The translations under genes were made by a program, and so were the position numbers. A stretch of DNA of 64,000 nt. Source: Polytrichum commune (lineage: Eukaryota > Streptophyta > Polytrichopsida > Polytrichales > Polytrichaceae). The notes below the pieces were generated by a model. That model saw nothing but the letters and a program-made list of their open reading frames with translations. It was not told where the DNA came from and did no database searches. Shown here piece by piece: positions 805 through 62,761 of the stretch; position 1 is the first letter of the stretch; each line of letters starts with the position of its first letter. Location: NCBI GenBank assembly GCA_950295325.1, contig OX485809.1, positions 35,219,081 to 35,283,080 on the forward strand. The letters are read 5' to 3'.

Positions 805-1203
805 TCAATAGAAATATAAAGGAAGAAGCATGAGACACAATAAGGTGAGAATAAGGCTACCGTGCTAGTCCAAAGAGGGATACAAGTTATCCCATATTGT
901 TTGTGTGAACCAATAAAGAGAAGAAAAGCAATAAAAGGCAAAGCAAGGAGAGCATAAGACTATCTCACTCCAAGCATTGTTCATATGCCTTTGTATAGGT
1001 GTCTATGCTTGTGCAATCTTATCTCCTATTAATTTCAATAGGGAGATTATTGTATAATGTCCGTGTATTTTTATGGTAATTATGTTTTGATTACTTTCAT
1101 ACGTGATTTATTATGGACTTCCATGTGGACTTGTGTTCCTAATATTATCGTTGTTGAGTTGTAGCGGCCCAAGGTACCAAACATCGTAGAAAAAATAAAC
1201 TAA

Positions 1204-1607
1204 GGGCCGGTTCACTTGGGGTCCCAAGTCCAAAATCCCACTCATGTAATCAAGTCCCACCATGAAGGCAAAGTCTCAACTTTTCATCCTCAAGAAACCA
1301 TTAAAATATGGTCAATTATCATTAAAGTCATATTTTGATTATTTTATGCCAAAGCATTCACAGGACTTGTATTGAGAGTTGGGTCTAGCTGTTTGCTCGA
1401 CCCAACTCTCAAGACGAGTCCTCGAGCCTCACCTCCAAAAAGTGTTGTCATGTGGGCATCCATATCATACTTAGGACTTAGGACTTGGGAACCCGTGTGA
1501 AGTGATAAGCCCCAACTGCCATGCTCTCGAGTCTCAACCACTAAGATTGCACGGATTGACCTCAAGTGACTTGGGACTTGGGACTTGGGACCCGTGTGAA
1601 CCGGCCC
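1204..1607. mobile_element. Tourist/PIF-Harbinger-like MITE, family M1
   Basis: The ends are inverted copies: GGGCCGGTTCACTTGGGGTC on the left and GGGCCGGTTCACACGGGTCC read inward from the right. TAA flanks both sides (1201-1203, 1608-1610), the target duplication typical of PIF/Harbinger MITEs. The element is 404 bp and non-coding. An internal inverted repeat (GAGAGTTGGGTC / GACCCAACTCTC, about 1374-1412) recurs in the other M1 copies at 32819-34771 and 45260-45537. Confidence 0.85.
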
Positions 1608-1965
1608 TAAGGTCACTTGAAGAAGGTGCTCTTGGAATTGCAGTTGGGCAAGAGGTAGGGGAAGGTAAAGTGGTAGGAGCAAGGAAAAATTAAATAATTG
1701 GGATCTTTCAAGGTAAGTTAATTATATTGGCAAGGATAACAAACATTTTATAGAGCCTTTATGTGGATAATTTCCCTCCATCCACAAGTAAACATAAATA
1801 TGGCTATAAACATTTGTTATTCATTGAGTATCAGTGACCTAGGTGGTGGACTCTTCATTAAATACCTAAGCGATGTGCATGGGTCACTATGAAATTAAAC
1901 CTCCTACATACAAGAAAGTCTATAAAGAAAAACGAATGAATGTGTTCTAATGGCATGCTAGAAAA

Positions 1966-2700: not shown

Positions 2701-3472
2701 CTAGAAAATGGATTCATATATTTATACTCAGGTTTTCAAATTAATGTGATAAATGCCTCCACTAGATGTATAAAATAATAATCACGACTTAAATAGGCCT
2801 TTATTACTTATAAAATCCACTTTCACTTTCCGACGAGAAAGTCATTGGACGTTTTTCATCCATAGTATGTAACTCAATGATTGCATCAAACAAACAAAGA
2901 CAAATGCATAATAACTTAGCCACAATCCAAAGAGAAAAACTCAAGGGAGCCCATGAGCGCTCCAAGAGCCTCTGGTTTGTAAAACCTAAAACCCAAATGC
3001 AAACCCTAACAAGAATGGACAAGGTAGTACGTACTAAGGACTATTACCATATGACAACAATGGATGAAAATGTGAATCGGATGAAGCTAACACATCTATT
3101 GTCAAAACAAAATCTCTAAACCTTAGGCCCCTTTTGTACATTTACATTGGCTTCAAAATCTTAATAGCTTTTCTAATTGTACAAACTAGGAAAAAATAAT
3201 ACCTCTTCCTTATCTATTCTATGTACACTAACGTCTCAAATAATATCCCTTCTTACACTCATGTTTGTTTGTACTATGCTATATGAAGAGTCCACCCCCA
3301 AGGGCTTCAAAGGAGGGTGAGGCCAATCAAGAATTGGAGAAGGCATCACAAGAGGAGCTTGAGAACCACAACCAAGAGTTTGTGGAATTACAAAAAGGTA
3401 CAGAAAACTTGAAAGACAAAGAAACCTGAAATCTACAATTTGCATTATGAAGACAGTGAAACATTTATGTCT

Positions 3473-3567
3473 AACACTAATTATCGAAGAATTGAAAATT
3501 AGTGTTGAGCAGGATAGGGTGGTAACAACACTAAATATAATCAAACACTAAATATCATATTTAGTGT
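3473..3567. repeat. Paired small palindromes with AACACTAATT / ACACTAAAT cores
   Basis: AACACTAATT (3473-3482) is inverted at 3497-3506, and a 23-base near-palindrome ACACTAAATATCATATTTAGTGT sits at 3545-3567. The second is the same palindrome that forms the ends of the MITEs at 7078, 42980 and 53140, so this is probably a fragment of that family. Confidence 0.5.
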
Positions 3568-3854
3568 AGCTTTATGCAAATGATGTCCCCGTCAATCACC
3601 ATATCGCCTCATACTATTGTGCACCAGCTTGTCGACCATAGATAGAAACTCATTGGGTTTATTCACTCTATGTGCCCAAAGTATAATATTGTTGGAATGT
3701 TGTTTCTGTGTTTTGTCATTTGATTGTTTTGTCTCATATTTTCACATGATTTTCCAGCTTTGCAAAGCGTGACATGTCAAGGTTGACAATCTACCCACAA
3801 CTCCTATTTTTGACGAGCATGAGCTTCACTAGTGGCCAAATACTAGTTCATGAA

Positions 3855-4869
3855 GGGCCACTTCACACACGAGACTGAGTGTCCGTGACCATTACACTTC
3901 AAGCACTCTCATTGGTGGAAAAGGCTGAGCCGGTCCAAGTTCGCTTCACACTACGCTTGAGGGATCAACGGAGTAAGGGCCAAGTTCCATGTGCCGGTCC
4001 TGGTCCATTTTTTAAATGGGTGAGAAACGGGTGACATCATCCAAAAAATGGGTGATGTCACCCATTTTATGGAGGGGTACTTCTATGTGGGGTGCCGGTT
4101 TATTTCGATTTCTTATTTTCTCATTAAATTTGGTGATTGATAAGACATGACACTTTATGAAGGTGACCGGCAATGAAGGTCATCGTCAAAAGAAAGCACC
4201 TCAAGAACAAAGTGGCCTTTAGTACCCAAGGGTGTACCCAAGGTGACCGGCCGATCTGGTCACTAGAGCTTTCTAACCGGCACATGTCCTTCTTGTGACT
4301 GTTAGGACCGCCGGTCCTTTGGCACCGGTCCTTGCACAATGTACAATGTGGGACACCCATCCATGGGGGGGTACCGGTCCTTGGGTGAGAGGGATGGGCA
4401 CATGGCACCACCCTTTTTTCACTGGCCCACCCAGTTATTTAAAAAAAATACGGACCGGGACCGGTGCATGGAACCTTGCCCTAAGTAATGCAAGATGGAT
4501 GTAAAGTCTACATGGATTCCTACATGGCATCGAATGGATCATGTTTCATGGTCACTTGGACTATCTATTTTCAAAAACCACCTCTTGGAGGTAGGTCTAA
4601 CACAAAACCAAGAGACCCTGGCACTCTATACGCTCACAACTGTTGATTTATTCTATTCTATCATGTGTGAGGAGCGACATGAGTAGAAATTCATTGAAAC
4701 AACATTTGGTCTAGGGTCCGGTCACATATGACTTCAAACTACACTTGAGAGTCCGTGACCATATATACCACATGATTTTGGAGGTGTCTTGGGATGGCCT
4801 TTGGACACTTTCTTTTGGGCTCTCACAATTTCATGGTCACGGCTCTTTGGCTCGTGTGTGAAGTGGCCC
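3855..4869. mobile_element. MITE family M4, interrupted by a second MITE
   Basis: Ends read GGGCCACTTCACACACGAG inward from both sides; TAA follows on the right (4870-4872), while the left flank reads GAA, probably a mutated TAA. Inverted, it matches the M4 copy at 33967-34469 along its length, except for the 505 bp insert at 3977-4481 plus one TAA. Without the insert it is about 507 bp. Confidence 0.8.
3977..4481. mobile_element. MITE family M5 nested in M4
   Basis: Inverted ends GGGCCAAGTTCCATGTGCCG and GGGCAAGGTTCCATGCACCG, with TAA directly repeated at 3974-3976 and 4482-4484. The flanking sequences join into the uninterrupted M4 sequence seen at 33967-34469, so this is a true secondary insertion. 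It is rich in ACCGGTCC-type motifs and non-coding. Confidence 0.85.
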
Positions 4870-4987
4870 TAAGATTAGCTTACAACCTGAGATATGTTAG
4901 AAGAATAGAATTGAACAATCTGATGTATTTGTAATTGAGCCATCTCAGGCTTAAGGTGCAGAAACCATTTGAGAGTTAGGGTGGATA

Positions 4988-5150
4988 CCCTGGTCCAGGG
5001 TATCAAGTAAGTAATTAGACCCTGGACCTAAACCGGATATCAACAGAGTTAGGACTTAAGACTATAGCAACTCCCCGGGTATCCCGAGGGTATAGAGTTG
5101 TTAATCAGCATTAGAGACACTTAACCCCGGTTATCCCGAGGGTATCAGCC
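4988..5150. repeat. Short direct and inverted repeats of GGTATCCCGAGGGTAT type
   Basis: Near-identical GC-rich units occur at about 5075-5093 and 5126-5145 (TATCCCGAGGGTAT core), with a related CCCTGGTCCAGGGTATC palindrome near 4990. No reading frame or known element fits. Confidence 0.4.
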
Positions 5151-5159
5151 TAGTCATCA

Positions 5160-6110
5160 ACCTAGGTAGGTATGGCCAGCACGAAGGTGCATACAGATGG
5201 TGACACATGGCACACATATTATTTTATTAATTTTATATGTATAAATCTCCTCTCCTGCCGTATCTGGTAGTTCTAGAGGATTGCACCTACATACTGTCCA
5301 AATACCATCTGACTACTTATCTTCCTCTCACAACAAGATACTCAAAACGAAGTCTCTGTTCAAACCATGCCAGCACACATTACATGTTTCAAGACGATAC
5401 TCACTGAGAAATACCTGATAAGAACAGAACAAAGTTTACAACTACGTAAAATAGAAATGTATTCCGGAGATGGGCATTTCCTTTTCCAGTGCCACTCAGG
5501 TTCTCGTATGAATGATTCCACCCCAAAAATGTCCAGGAATAGCATTGTCAACTTCAAAGCTTTTCAGAGCTACATCTGGTCATGGACATGCAGTAGTATT
5601 ACATGTACCTAATGACTCTGAGGAGCTCAAAGAACATGTGTGAGCCAAAGAAAACGTGCCATCATGCATTCATAAAGCATACAATTAACCAGTGCCAATG
5701 TCCATGGGAAATTGAATCCCACCTAAATCTGAGACTGCCTCTGAATGTGAACGGAGTGATTTTCAACCATGCACCCAAGCTCGATCCCAAGCTCAACATA
5801 CCACAACAATGCGTGTTGTGTTTGTATCAGAGGTCTGTGTGATAGACATGCAATATCACATGTTAGAATCCATATAAAGATGAGTCATTCATGTAAGCAA
5901 GATCTAACTTTCGGATCGAAGCTCAAGGCATATATCCTGACAATCAGCAAGGTTGACACCTGACTTAGTGGAATGATAACGAATGTAATTCTTTGTAGAC
6001 TATCCTGCCAAAGTTTTGTGCAAGTGGTACAGTCATCCTCCATGTTGTTTCCCACCACTTATGCTTGCCTCTTAGCCCCTACCTTCCCACACCCAATTTC
6101 CCTCAATTCT
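5160..6110. other. No recognised feature
   Basis: About 950 bases of AT-rich sequence with short open frames on both strands. None has recognisable domains or a matching copy elsewhere in the window. Confidence 0.5.
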
Positions 6111-21895: not shown

Positions 21896-29274
<7,379 letters not shown>

Positions 29275-32815: not shown

Positions 32816-32852
32816 TTAGGGCCGGTTTACATGGGACCCAAGTTGGGACTTA

Positions 32853-33442
32853 GGGCCACTTCACACATGAGCCAAGAGCCGTGACCTTGTAATGGTGAGG
32901 ACCCTTGACTCTCATCCAAAGGCCGTACCATGGGTGTTGGGAAAGCCATTTTATGTAGTCTTTGGCCCTCAAGCATAGTGTGAAGTGAGAATGAACCATG
33001 TTGCGGGACCATTGCATATTTTGTTGGCGGAAAAAGAGGGGAGGATTTGGTTTAATATAATATGTCTCCAAGTTTATCAATTTAAGATAACTACTTGGTG
33101 GTGTTTGTCTGTCCTGGAATCTGTCTTGGAATCTGCCATGCAGTCTGTCCTGAAATTTGTCTTGTTGGAAAAAATATTAAAAAAGTCATGGTCTCCCGGA
33201 ATTTGTGTCAAGCCCACCTCTTGGAGGTGGGTTTGACGCAAATTCCGGTAGACCATGCACCCTTATCCACAACTAGTCATGTAGGACTCCATGTAGACTT
33301 TTCATCCACAAACTTTTCTTTGGGCCTTTAGGCCTTCACCTCCTAGTGTGAAGTGAACTTCGACGGTCTCCGCCTTTTCGACCAATGAGAGCTCTTACAT
33401 TGCCATGGTCAAGGGCCTTCAGCCTTGTATGTGAAGTGGCCC
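32853..33442. mobile_element. MITE family M2, tower element 1
   Basis: 590 bp. Ends GGGCCACTTCACACATGAGC and, inverted, GGGCCACTTCACATACAAGG, with TTA on both sides (32850-32852, 33443-33445). The second copy is 61772-62706, itself interrupted. It carries an inner inverted pair (GGTCTCCCGGAATTTG… / …AAATTCCGGTAGACC, about 33190-33255). Confidence 0.82.
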
Positions 33443-33445
33443 TTA

Positions 33446-33963
33446 GGGCCGCTTCACACTATGGCCATCCAAGTCGAGAGGCCATGGGATTGAGTGGCCA
33501 AACTTTGTTGAGAGTCCAAATAAATGAGCTAAAAATCATCAATAAAATATAGTAAGTGGAGCCTTTGGCCGGGCATAGTGTGAAGCTTCCAAAGGCCAAG
33601 CCCAAAGTCCAAACCTTTGGCCATGAACTCCCACGGCCTCTCGACTTGGACGGCCATAGTGTGAAGCCTCCAAAGGCCGAGCCCAAAGTCCAAACCCAAA
33701 GGCCAAGATCTTGTCAATGATGGGTTTTTTAATGAAAAAAAATTGACAGCCTCTCGACCATAGTTTGGGTTTCCATTCCCGTCCGACCCAAACTTCCTTC
33801 GAAAGTCCGTCGCCTTCTTTAAAAAGCAATCATTTTAAATTGCGATGGCCTTTGGACTTTGGCCATAGTGTGAAGGGTCGAGAGGCCAAACTCTTGGTTT
33901 CTTGCAATTTGATTGGTGGATATTGACGGCCTCTTGACCTTTAGCCATAGTGTGAAGCACCCC
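33446..33963. mobile_element. MITE family M3, tower element 2
   Basis: 518 bp. Ends GGGCCGCTTCACACTATGGC and, inverted, GGGGTGCTTCACACTATGGC; TTA on both sides (33443-33445, 33964-33966). A separate copy lies at 35085-35584. Several inner AGTGTGAAGCCTCC units suggest repeated end sequences. Long open frames here are by-products of the repeats. Confidence 0.82.
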
Positions 33964-33966
33964 TTA

Positions 33967-34469
33967 GGGCTACTTCACACACGAGCCAAGAGCCATGACC
34001 ATGAAATTGTGAGAGCCCAAAAGAAAGTGCCCAAAGGCCGTCCCAACGCACCTCCAAAGTCATGTAGTGTGGTCCCGGATCCTCAAGTGTAGTGTGAAGC
34101 CATATGTGACCGGGCCCTCAACCAAATGCTATTTCAATGACTTTCTATTCAGGGGGGTCCTCACACATGGTAAAATAAAATAAACCAACGGTTGTAAGCA
34201 TTTAGAGTGCCATGGTCTCCCGGTCTTGTGTTAGGCCTGCCTCCAAGAGGTGGTTTTTGAAAATAATCCAAGTGGCCATGAAACATGATCCATTTGATGC
34301 CATTTAGGAATCCATGTAGATTTTGCATCCATCTTGCATTCATATATATACTTCGTTGGTCCCTCAAGCGTTGTGTGAAGCAAACTTGGACTGGCTCTGC
34401 CTTTTCCACCAATGAGAGTGCTTGAAGTGTAATGGTCACAGGCTCTTAGTCTCATGTGTGAAGTGGCCC
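33967..34469. mobile_element. MITE family M4, tower element 3
   Basis: 503 bp. Ends GGGCTACTTCACACACGAGC and, inverted, GGGCCACTTCACACATGAGA; TTA on both sides (33964-33966, 34470-34472). It is the uninterrupted reference for the copy at 3855-4869. Confidence 0.82.
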
Positions 34470-35084
34470 TTACTACTTCACACATAGTCCCAAGTCCTAA
34501 GTCCTAAGTATGACATAGATGCCTACTTGGCAAAACTTTTTGAAGCTAAGGCTTGAGACTTGTGTTGAGAGTTGGGCCAATCAAAAAGCTAGACCCAACT
34601 CTCAACACAAGTCCCGTAAATAAAAATCTTTGCATAAAATAATCAACCTCCAATTTTAATGATGATTAACCATATTTTAATGGTTTCTCGAGGCTCAAAA
34701 GTTGGGACATTGGCCTCCATGTTGGGATTTACTAATACGAGTGGAACTTGGGACTTCATGCGAACCAACCCTTATTGTCTCCGACCTAAGTTACATGATC
34801 TCATCATCAACTTGAACGTATATTATTATTGCTTGCTAGTGTAATGTTATTCTTATGCAAAGTACGCAAGCTGCGAGAACAAACATTTGTAGATCCAAAG
34901 CTGTCATATGTGTTAAGTTACATTACTGAACCATTCATTTTTACAAGTTCTAATAAACAACTTGGGTGCCTTTGGGTGCAGTAAGTACTTAATATATTGA
35001 TCATCATTGTCACATATGATTATATTTCCATTTTCTCTATGCCATAAGATTATAAGATAATAAAATGTAAATAGCATAGAATAA

Positions 35085-35584
35085 GGGCGGTTTCACACTA
35101 TGGTTGTCCAAGTCAGAGGCCATGGGATTGAATGGCCAAACTTTGTTGAGAGTCCAAAGATATGGGCTAAAAATACCCAATGAAATATAGGAATTGGAGC
35201 CTTCAACTAGGCATAGTATGAAGCCTCCAAAGGCCAAGGCCAAGCCCAAGGTCCAAAGGAAGAAGGAGCATCCCACTTTATCCCTTGCCCAAAACAACCC
35301 CTCCAATCTAACATCTAACATCTTGTCAATGTTTGATTTCTCTTGGAAAATTTTGACGGCCTCTCGACCATAGTTTGGGTTTCCATTCATGTCCGTCTCA
35401 AACTTCCTTCGAGAGTTTGTTGCCTTGGTCAAGAAGTACTGCCATGTAGGCATTCTAAGTTGTGACGACCTTTGGACTTTGGCCTCTCGTGTGAAGGGTT
35501 TAGAGGCCGAATTCTTGGTTTCTTGCAATCTTATTGGTGGAAATCGACGGCCTCTCGACCTTTGGTCATAGTGTGAAGCGGCTT
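35085..35584. mobile_element. MITE family M3, single copy
   Basis: 500 bp. Ends GGGCGGTTTCACACTATGGT and, inverted, AAGCCGCTTCACACTATGAC; TAA at 35082-35084 and 35585-35587. Matches tower element 2 through most of its length (CATGGGATTGA.TGGCCAAAC, GACGGCCTCTCGACC). A 163-codon antisense open frame is a by-product. Confidence 0.85.
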
Positions 35585-35648
35585 TAAACTATATATGATT
35601 GGCTAACTTGATCAAGAGTTGTAGCAAAGGTGTAGACAATTTGGATTT

Positions 35649-60329: not shown

Positions 60330-61770
60330 GGCTAATTGTCCGTAGTTGCTACGAAGGGTCGGATTTTTTCCAATTTACATCGGCAACAGCCGGTCTTTTG
60401 TAAAATCAATCGGCCAATTGCCTATATTTTCATATTTTCATTGGCCAATATCCGATTAAATGGAATTCATATCGGCGCTAATTGTTTAAAAAATGTATGA
60501 AAAGTTATTAGAAATCATTTCTTAGTACAAAATCTTGAATAAGTGAAAAGAAAGGCATGTTCAAAACTTTAAATTTGAAGAGTTAATATGCTTGGCAGGA
60601 ATTGAATCTAGCAATGCCTTCACCGCTTGAAGGCCAAGGGTCCCCCAATTCTTCATAGAAGCAATTGGATTTGGTCATGGAAAGGTTGCATAATTCAAAA
60701 AGTTTAAGGTTTAGGGTACTTCCTCAAGTGCATCATCAAATGCCCCAGACAAATAGCGCTCTGGATGCTTCCGGCTAAAATCCAGTAACTCACAAGAAAA
60801 ATCGGCTACATTTCCGGGACATTTTCTGGTCCATCGGCTAATTGCCGGAGGATTGAAATTACAATCGGATTGCCATCCGATGGTTGGAAATTTGGACCAG
60901 CCATGAGGGGAAATCCATCGGCTGATAATGAACTAGCTGTCGGTTTTCCCCGAACATAGCACAAGTCACGTTTTGTTGACGTTCGAGATAAGTAGAAGTG
61001 CGAGAAACATGAAAAAACGAACCAAATGCACATGCCTTGACTTGGGATGCATTTTGGGACATGTTTGAAATGAATGCAATAGAATAGTAGTTTTTTTAAA
61101 AAAATCGATCAGCAGTTTGCAAGTTGGTCAGTTCATCGTCAAGCATCTTCGACACGATTTTCGAAGCACTTGCCAAATTGCACTCGCCCAACTCCGATCT
61201 GAGCTTGCATGCCGCATGCAGGCTCCGATTTGCATGCGAGAATCTTGAATGGGATCCTCAACCTTTCTAGATTCTTTGCAGAACCAGGCAAAGTAAAACA
61301 AATAAGGTAGGAATAAGTTACCATAACCCGTTAACCACCCTCTAGCCATGCACTAGACCGCTGTCATAATGGTGAAGTGCCATTTTTAAAACCGATCATG
61401 GCTCGGCGGCAACTTCAATGCGTGTACACTTAGTGTAGTCTATGGGAGTCAAGTGTTGATGTACTCATGAGGTAACCGATTTAGGCGATGTTATGTATGG
61501 AAATGCGGATTTCCGTGTTCGGTGTAGGGAGAATCTAGTGAACGAGTAGGGGGTTGGACAACTTTCCACTTTGAAGAATTGTAGCATTTTTTTTTGTATG
61601 GGGTAGAAATATATGAAACAACTTGCATTCTTCATGAATCCTTTTCGTCTATGTTGGGAAATTATCTCATGATTGTCAAACTGGATCTTCAATGCGAATC
61701 GCCTTATTTTCACGGGTTATGGTATTTCTATCTTAAATGGGGGTTCAACCGACCAACCAGGGAATGTATT
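60330..61770. other. Spacer with scattered short repeats
   Basis: Several short CGGCTAATTGCCGG/CGGCCAATTGCC-type palindromes lie at 60370-60960. No gene recognised. Confidence 0.4.
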
Positions 61771-61771
61771 A

Positions 61772-62706
61772 GGGCTACTTCACACATGAGCCAAGAGCCG
61801 TGACCTCGTAATGGTGATGTCACGGTATGTGGCGTCGGCGGCCACACCTTATCCGTTGGGTTTCATCCATTTAAATTTGGATGGATGAATCTTATTTGTG
61901 GAGAGGAAGGCTCCTAAGTGAGGAGCCTCCTCCTTGGCTTGGCATTCTTGCCAAGTGAGAAGGAAGAGAATCAAACACTCATAAGAGCTCCAAATCTCTC
62001 TTCAAATGTACACAATGAGTCAAGCTATCTCTCACTCCACCACGGGAGAATCCAAGAGTTGTTTATGTGTGACTTTGCTATGTTTTAGTGTTATTTGTTA
62101 GTGGTGGTTGGTACTCGAGCTGCAGTGACACACGATCGTTATTTACACAATAGTGAGGACCCTTGATTCTCATCCAAAGGTCGTACCCTGGGTGTTGGGA
62201 AAGTCATTTTATGTAGTCACGGGCCCTCAAGCATAGTATAAAGTGAGAATGGACCATGTTGCGGGATCATTGTATATTTTGTTGGCGAAAAAAGAGGGGA
62301 GGATTTGGTTTAGTATAATATGTCTCAAACTCTATCAATTCAAGAGAATTACTTGGTGGTGTTTGTATCACCTGGAATCTATCTTGAAATATGTTATGGA
62401 ATTTGCCCTACAATTTGTCATGAAATTTGTCTTGCATGACAAAAAAAAGGTCATGGTTTGCCAGAATTTGCGTGAGCCCACCTCCACGAGGTGGGCCTGA
62501 CACAAATTCCAGCAAACCATGCACCCTTATCCATAACATGCCATGTAGGACTCCATGTAGACTTTTCATCTGCAAACTTTTCTTTGGGCCTTTAGGCCTT
62601 CACCTCCTAGTGTGAAGTGAACTTGGACAGTCTCCGCCTTTTCGACCAATGAGAACTCTTACATTGCCATGGTCATGGGCATGTGACCTTGAGTGTGAAG
62701 TGGCCC
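61772..62706. mobile_element. MITE family M2, interrupted copy
   Basis: Ends GGGCTACTTCACACATGAGC and, inverted, GGGCCACTTCACACTCAAGG; TTA at 61769-61771 and 62707-62709. It matches 32853-33442 throughout except for about 339 extra bases after TAATGGTGA. Without them it is about 596 bp. Confidence 0.82.
61818..62148. mobile_element. 331 bp insertion in M2, type uncertain
   Basis: Begins TGTCACGG and lies between AATGGTGA (61810-61817) and AATAGTGA (62149-62156), a likely 8-base target duplication with one mismatch; the uninterrupted M2 copy has one AATGGTGA. The TGTCACGG start is LTR-like (solo LTR or TRIM), and an inner GTGACAC near the right end could instead form short inverted ends. Confidence 0.6.
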
Positions 62707-62761
62707 TTAGATGAACTAACGTAATCAAGGGACAATTTTGATTTTTTGGTTTCTCCACTTT

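Follow-up and report, generated by a model that had tools for sequence, protein, structure and literature searches.

The structure at positions 32816 to 34774 of the window (the whole 64,000-nucleotide stretch of Polytrichum commune DNA analysed here) is best explained as a MITE multimer: Tourist-type (PIF/Harbinger-like) MITEs inserted one after another into a single TTA. We put the probability of this reading at about 0.88. Base-by-base reading located six TTAs, at 32816, 32850, 33443, 33964, 34470 and 34772, within an M1-type MITE that is interrupted at an inner TTA by M2, M3 and M4. At 32850, 33443, 33964 and 34470 a single TTA is common to the two neighbours. The parts are as follows.

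32816..32852, + strand: M1 left part, TTA and TIR GGGCCGGTTTACATGGGACCCAAG, ending with the inner TTA 32850-32852
32850..33445, + strand: M2 MITE, 596 bp including both TTAs
33443..33966, + strand: M3 MITE, 524 bp including both TTAs
33964..34472, + strand: M4 MITE, 509 bp including both TTAs; a relative of M2
34470..34774, + strand: M1 right part, bounded by the duplicated inner TTA and the outer TTA 34772-34774, both included
33443..33445, no strand: TTA of the M2/M3 joint (CCC-TTA-GGG)
33964..33966, no strand: TTA of the M3/M4 joint (CCC-TTA-GGG), counted among the 52 genome-wide junctions described below

This reading, together with relatives in the window, confirms the tower of four MITEs with single-TTA joints that the original prediction had described. 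The gap holds three elements, of which M2 and M4 are related (69% over the right part and 88% over the first 50 bp); thus, the tower consists of M1, two members of one clan, and M3, rather than four unrelated families. M2's left end and M4's right end show perfect complementarity over 20 bp. The 9-mer CCCTTAGGG occurs twice in the window, both times at the junctions, against 0.34 copies expected in the window from its genome-wide count. No match to Rfam at gathering thresholds and no open reading frame of at least 180 amino acids was found within the window.

The inner M1 TTA (32850-32852) is the target of the nested insertions, and the target sequence in M1 is GGGAC-TTA-CTACTTC. The empty site was observed directly: it is uninterrupted in 13 of the 20 M1 loci fetched, 11 of which have TTA there (the homologous stretch was sought with a pattern allowing up to 3 substitutions), and also in one of the following relatives within the window.

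1201..1610, - strand: M1 relative, uninterrupted, with an empty inner TTA site
45540-45255, - strand: M1 relative, truncated
61769..62709, + strand: M2 relative, 85%, split by a different insert at about 61822-62148
35082..35586, + strand: M3 relative (M3b), 74%, right end eroded
3853..4872, - strand: M4 relative, 86-91%, split by another TTA-flanked MITE at about 4484-3974

Complete copies of all four families had been described elsewhere in the window; this holds for M1 and M3, whereas the relatives of M2 and M4 have both ends but are interrupted. Compared with the copy at 1610, the tower M1 is missing about 65 bp close to the left end. The MITE nested in the M4 relative (3974-4484) has the ends TTA GGGCAAGGTTCCATGCACC ... 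CGGCACATGGAACTTGGCCC TTA. The insert of about 330 bp at 61822-62148 in the M2 relative is without TTA limits, and by eye GTGA is seemingly duplicated there. Elsewhere in the window, a phosphoglucomutase exon lies at 26267-26380 (- strand; E 1.8e-5 for its best match in PDB). A GT resembling a splice donor comes next, and then, at about 25736-26244, a MITE that is distantly M2/M4-like (67%); this MITE probably sits in an intron.

The elements have several features of the Tourist type. TTA stands at all six limits of the tower, in keeping with 3-bp TTA/TAA target-site duplications; the elements are short, non-coding and of many copies, with terminal repeats GGGC..CTTCACAC in M2-M4, lengths of 509-596 bp and thousands of ends; and an extended target preference is seen in a G-rich first base among 192 flanks. 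Plant PIF-like elements have TTA/TAA duplications and the TIR motif G(N)5GTT, according to PMC2213677; compared by eye with this motif, M1 (GGGCCGGTT) fits, and M2-M4 (GGGC..CTT) do not. The transposase domain PF13359 is abundant in the assembly (150 scored matches among 990 candidates; it is also present in 1 of 14 control genomes). Nine PF13359 loci were read, eight spanning about 3.5 kb and one 7.6 kb, and none showed two ends that match; they held isolated weak end-like matches and a single M4 copy. That no autonomous element with these ends was found among them counts against the stepwise view. The ends seen at one of these loci, L064, were rejected as those of an autonomous element, as both belong to a complete M4 copy (80%). 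The same locus contains, at 3351-5333, a PIF/Harbinger-like pair of converging open reading frames, a 488-amino-acid transposase and a 168-amino-acid frame that by eye resembles a Myb-like ORF1.

We propose that an older M1 copy would have received the first element at an inner TTA, which was thereby duplicated, and that later elements would each have entered the edge TTA of an earlier one, duplicating the TTA again; since the edge TTA is duplicated at each entry, neighbours would share single TTAs. A PIF-like site has C/G beside TTA; one favourable half of it would come from the element's own ...CCC end and the other from the flanking genomic sequence that the first insertion had already picked. 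With both halves favourable, edges would be good targets. A tendency of the elements to lie within about 60 bp of each other would add the remainder of the excess described below. We infer the cut-and-paste chemistry from the family; the transposase, too, is inferred.

The original prediction had called for the layers to be dated by divergence from family consensus. Kimura two-parameter (K2P) distances were 0.134 for M1 (SE 0.020), 0.115 for M3 (0.016), 0.078 for M4 (0.012) and 0.030 for M2 (0.007), these errors being rough, and 0.123, 0.092, 0.058 and 0.027, respectively, without CpG positions. The consensus of M1 had 11 members (10 of 20 fetched loci, the other 10 having shown no right end, and the window copy at 1610), that of M3 25 (16 of 20 loci and nine junction copies), that of M4 39, and that of M2 23 (full-length relatives from junction loci, with two duplicates removed). 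One M3 member with K2P 0.67, probably misaligned, was kept in the mean. From these divergences M1 would be oldest, M3 would have entered M1, M4 would have followed at the right edge of M3, and M2 would have come last at its left edge. Only the youth of M2 appears as a clear step; those from M1 to M3 and from M3 to M4 are each less than two rough standard errors, and the families differ in age. For M2, the consensus is possibly close to a young subfamily.

In one assembly (408 Mb), we searched for the pattern end-TTA-end (GTGTGAAGNNNCCCTTAGGGCNNCTTCACAC), which covers only matching junctions. The exact TIR-TTA-TIR junction occurs 52 times, and the reversed control not once. All 52 loci were read, the window's own included; L060-L063 lie outside the analysed set. 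The M3-M4 joint of the window is one of the 52, and its M2-M3 joint falls outside the pattern because the right end of M2 differs by one base. By best BLAST match, the 52 junctions comprise 22 M2-M4, 10 M3-M4, 9 M4-M4, 5 M2-M3, 4 M2-M2 and one M1-M2 pair, and one pair of an unclassed element with M4; the assignment to families, here and in the gapped pairs described below, has a thin basis for the left element of L050 (71%), the right element of L052 (22 bases) and the left element of L110 (37 bases). M2 with M4, and M3 with M4, are present in all relative orientations. A second nested tower was found at L004 (925-2066), where an M2 copy with an internal deletion holds, at one of its inner TTAs, an inverted M3 and an M4 that have a TTA in common; what is left of M2 beyond M4 is recognisable by eye only. 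In L020, L021, L038 and the window, a third end-like sequence (at most 3 substitutions) lies directly beside the outer triplet. L027, L028 and L029 (C3: 31.26, 31.29 and 32.91 Mb) contain one M2-M4 tower, 92-95% alike over 2.2-2.4 kb with the flanks included, which on sequence similarity is a segmental duplication of a single tower; flank similarities between other junction loci were presumed to be other repeats.

An alternative is that M2, M3 and M4 moved as one composite element through the outer ends of M2 and M4. The complementarity of these two ends noted above would suit such an element, as would M2-M3 pairs of the same arrangement elsewhere. In fact, five of the six M2-M3 junctions are M2+M3+ (L032, L038, L045, L046 and the window at 33443), more uniform than independent insertion suggests. 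However, the order M2-M3-M4, whose recurrence as a fixed unit had been named as the finding that would speak against edge insertion, was not met again among the 52 pattern-matching loci, and L004 has M3 inverted, together with M4, inside an M2 copy. The target-site triplets provide a further test. Entry into a duplicated edge triplet would leave all triplets of a stack identical, whereas a block that moves would acquire new outer triplets, expected to match the inner one in about half of the cases. The two outer ends could be located in 33 of the 52 pairs; with the junction read as TTA, the outer triplets are TTA/TTA in 21, TAA/TAA in two (L021 and L031), and mixed or mutated in the other 10, seven of which have one triplet one base off TTA. 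With L027-L029 counted once, the concordance is 19 to 2 (p = 2e-4), and in the tower itself all four inner joints are TTA. The opposite outer triplets of L021 and L031, and partly of L008 (CAA/TAA, which leans the same way), are as a moved dimer would give and count against stepwise stacking, although a single T-A change at the junction would produce them too; a few of the pairs, such as L021 and L031, may be block moves.

The halves of the junction pairs also look independent wherever this could be tested. In the six of nine M4-M4 pairs with both elements full-length, the halves are 87.2-90.1% identical (mean 0.883, against 0.877 between loci), and in the two testable of four M2-M2 pairs 0.839 and 0.952, against 0.888 between loci; for the consensus and for part of this comparison, the M2 and M4 sets exclude L028 and L029, which are duplicates. 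M2 and M3 halves diverge unequally (94.8% and 82.0% between the window and L032). No co-similarity of halves was detected in five arrangement classes, one of six pairs and four of three (Mantel p 0.58-1.0, with weak power at n = 3). From triplet concordance and independent halves together, we conclude that the towers arose as one element after another inserted into the same duplicated target, and not mainly by block moves. Of the two marks of a MITE multimer, identical stack triplets were found at the four inner joints of the tower and in 21 of 33 pairs genome-wide, and independent halves in 8 same-family pairs; a fixed recurring block with new outer duplications and parts of matched divergence, which would mark a composite transposon, was not found among the 52 loci. 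We thus reject a fixed composite trio and consider movement as a unit very improbable, and the repeated insertion at TTAs on element edges that the original prediction envisaged is supported.

The junctions are far commoner than random expectation. Strict ends were defined as GTGTGAAGTGGCCC followed by TTA or TAA, with the tenth flank base not G; they number 2606 with TTA and 2661 with TAA genome-wide (none in the reversed controls), or about 6,420 ends after correction. Two strict ends are joined in 32 of the 52 junctions, where uniform use of TTA/TAA predicts 0.62, a 52-fold excess. Pairs of strict ends separated by a gap are also in excess over the 0.78 expected per 31-bp bin, with 8 at 0-30 bp, 10 at 31-61 bp, 3 at 110-140 bp and 2 at 300-330 bp (10, 13, 3.8 and 2.6-fold, respectively); near and far pairs differ (18 versus 5, p = 0.011; a local duplication, whose members C3:4733828 and C3:4734990 fall into separate bins, is included in the near counts). 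Apart from these pairs, MITE ends recur at regular steps of 222-228 bp (G000:C1:5137938-5138636) and 124-128 bp (G000:C6:31017446-31017732), apparently in small tandem arrays that include a MITE end. Per available site, the edge is used 3.7-4.5 times more than nearby TWA sites; the value varies with the TWA density assumed, and the intervals are 2.0-6.9 and 2.5-8.5. In 192 unique non-junction flanks among the 200 matches listed, the first flank base is G in 45% (TTA) and 56% (TAA), against a background of 20-21%; the commonest flank triplet among the matches listed is GTG after TTA (11 of 97) and GTT after TAA (8 of 95). At an edge, one side reads GGG outwards and the other is a flank that an earlier insertion has chosen; multiplied together, the preferences for the two sides predict 5.3-fold edge use (bootstrap 3.1-9.8), a wide interval that counts somewhat against the stepwise view. 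As the prediction covers the observed 3.7-4.5-fold, no special edge targeting is needed. The 52-fold excess has two factors, short-range clustering of 10-13-fold and a site preference of about 4-fold, and an extra edge effect of about 2-fold may exist within the wide prediction interval. The earlier claim that elements create new targets at their own edges was right in kind, as the measured flank preference suffices for it; the claim that these edges are hit in a special way was not borne out, the excess being clustering and PIF-type flank preference. The bare 9-mer count that had been proposed as a test gave 2180, versus 1426 for the reversed word; at 1.5-fold, the word is too short to decide. 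Among 100 listed strict ends followed by TTAGGG, 29 run exactly into GGGCCACTTCACAC; the others lead to variants of M-type ends, to further starts resembling those of MITEs, or to sequence of other kinds.

The 52-fold excess, and clustering that declines with distance, would also be expected if a transposase bound to resident TIRs directed copies to the edge TTA beyond the flank effect. We regard this as unlikely, because edge use relative to nearby TWA sites lies within the range of the flank preference, and the near-range clustering could equally reflect small stretches of accessible chromatin. A related and similarly doubtful possibility is that resident MITEs attract insertions within about 60 bp (where the rate is 10-13 times the uniform one, against about 3-4 times beyond 100 bp) through a transposition complex tethered to their TIRs, in which case towers would be the zero-distance end of self-seeding, pruned by rapid loss of spacer-less palindromes. 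For successive insertion guided by flank preference, the 61-bp clustering is a weak point, as it has no explanation of its own.

All 13 same-family pairs with a common TTA (L002, L005, L008, L017, L019, L020, L024, L036, L041, L044, L049, L051 and L053) are direct repeats, whereas mixed-family pairs are direct in 21 cases and inverted in 17 (p = 0.002). Direct repeats could have arisen by tandem duplication or unequal recombination, and L027-L029, alike beyond the elements themselves, are an instance of duplication. However, 38 of the 51 classed pairs join different families, and in the eight of 13 same-family pairs with two full-length elements, identity within the pair is about that between loci. 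With classes mixed and same-family halves not closer, tandem duplication was rejected except for the segmental copies L027-L029, and it is the least probable origin of neighbours that we considered. All 18 pairs with gaps of 0-61 bp (L105-L122) were also read; same-family pairs are direct in four cases and inverted in five, and mixed pairs direct in five and inverted in four. The same-family spacers are 2-53 bp, the inverted ones 29-50 bp. Inverted same-family pairs therefore number 0 of 13 at a common TTA and 5 of 9 with a spacer (p = 0.005). Probably, near-perfect kilobase palindromes that lack a spacer either disappear quickly or drop out during assembly. This contrast is a less ordinary by-product of the analysis.

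The 9-bp extended target of PIF/mPing has the consensus CWCTTAGWG. As in PIF/mPing, TTA is duplicated here within an extended target, and G adjoins TTA/TAA in 45-56% of flanks against 20-21%; unlike in PIF/mPing, a matching transposase was not found (nine PF13359 loci). In PMC2836001, plant PIF/Harbinger elements are described with TTA duplication and a 9-bp extended target preference, 3 bp on each side. MITE multimers of rice and maize are credited to Jiang and Wessler (2001), whose work we compare through citing papers: 11% of rice MITEs are in multimers (PMC10664404), and nested and clustered MITE insertions were reported in carrot with reference to the same study (PMC3695323). As far as these citations go, MITEs there were inserted in and beside other MITEs, as here; in the present study, the pairs were set against uniform, near-range and flank-preference expectations and subjected to the target-duplication triplet test. 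The Pithovirus M1/M2 repeats form (M1-M2)n-M1 arrays that share a target-site duplication, according to PMC10664404, and resemble the moss pairs in that neighbouring MITE-like repeats have one common duplication. They differ in their TA target, viral genome and alternating order, which the authors read as mostly moving together; in the moss, neither order nor orientation is constant, and the two halves look independent of each other.

MITE multimers and the 9-bp target preference of PIF are already in print, and the kind of structure is thus known; a genome-wide measurement and one less expected by-product are added here. In the titles and abstract openings found, a partial coverage in which subscription journals are mostly missing, the triplet test and the spacer contrast are not mentioned, and we claim no novelty for them. 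The tower looks like an ordinary outcome of how a known element class picks its landing sites. The triplet test, which asks whether outer and inner triplets agree, separates stepwise stacking from block movement without the need for relatives. The missing spacer-less inverted pairs, with short-spacer ones present, may be a natural record of palindrome instability. Furthermore, the moss provides a countable case of self-nesting: about 6,400 ends reveal which targets one MITE clan prefers, and from this preference it can be predicted how frequently its members should stack.
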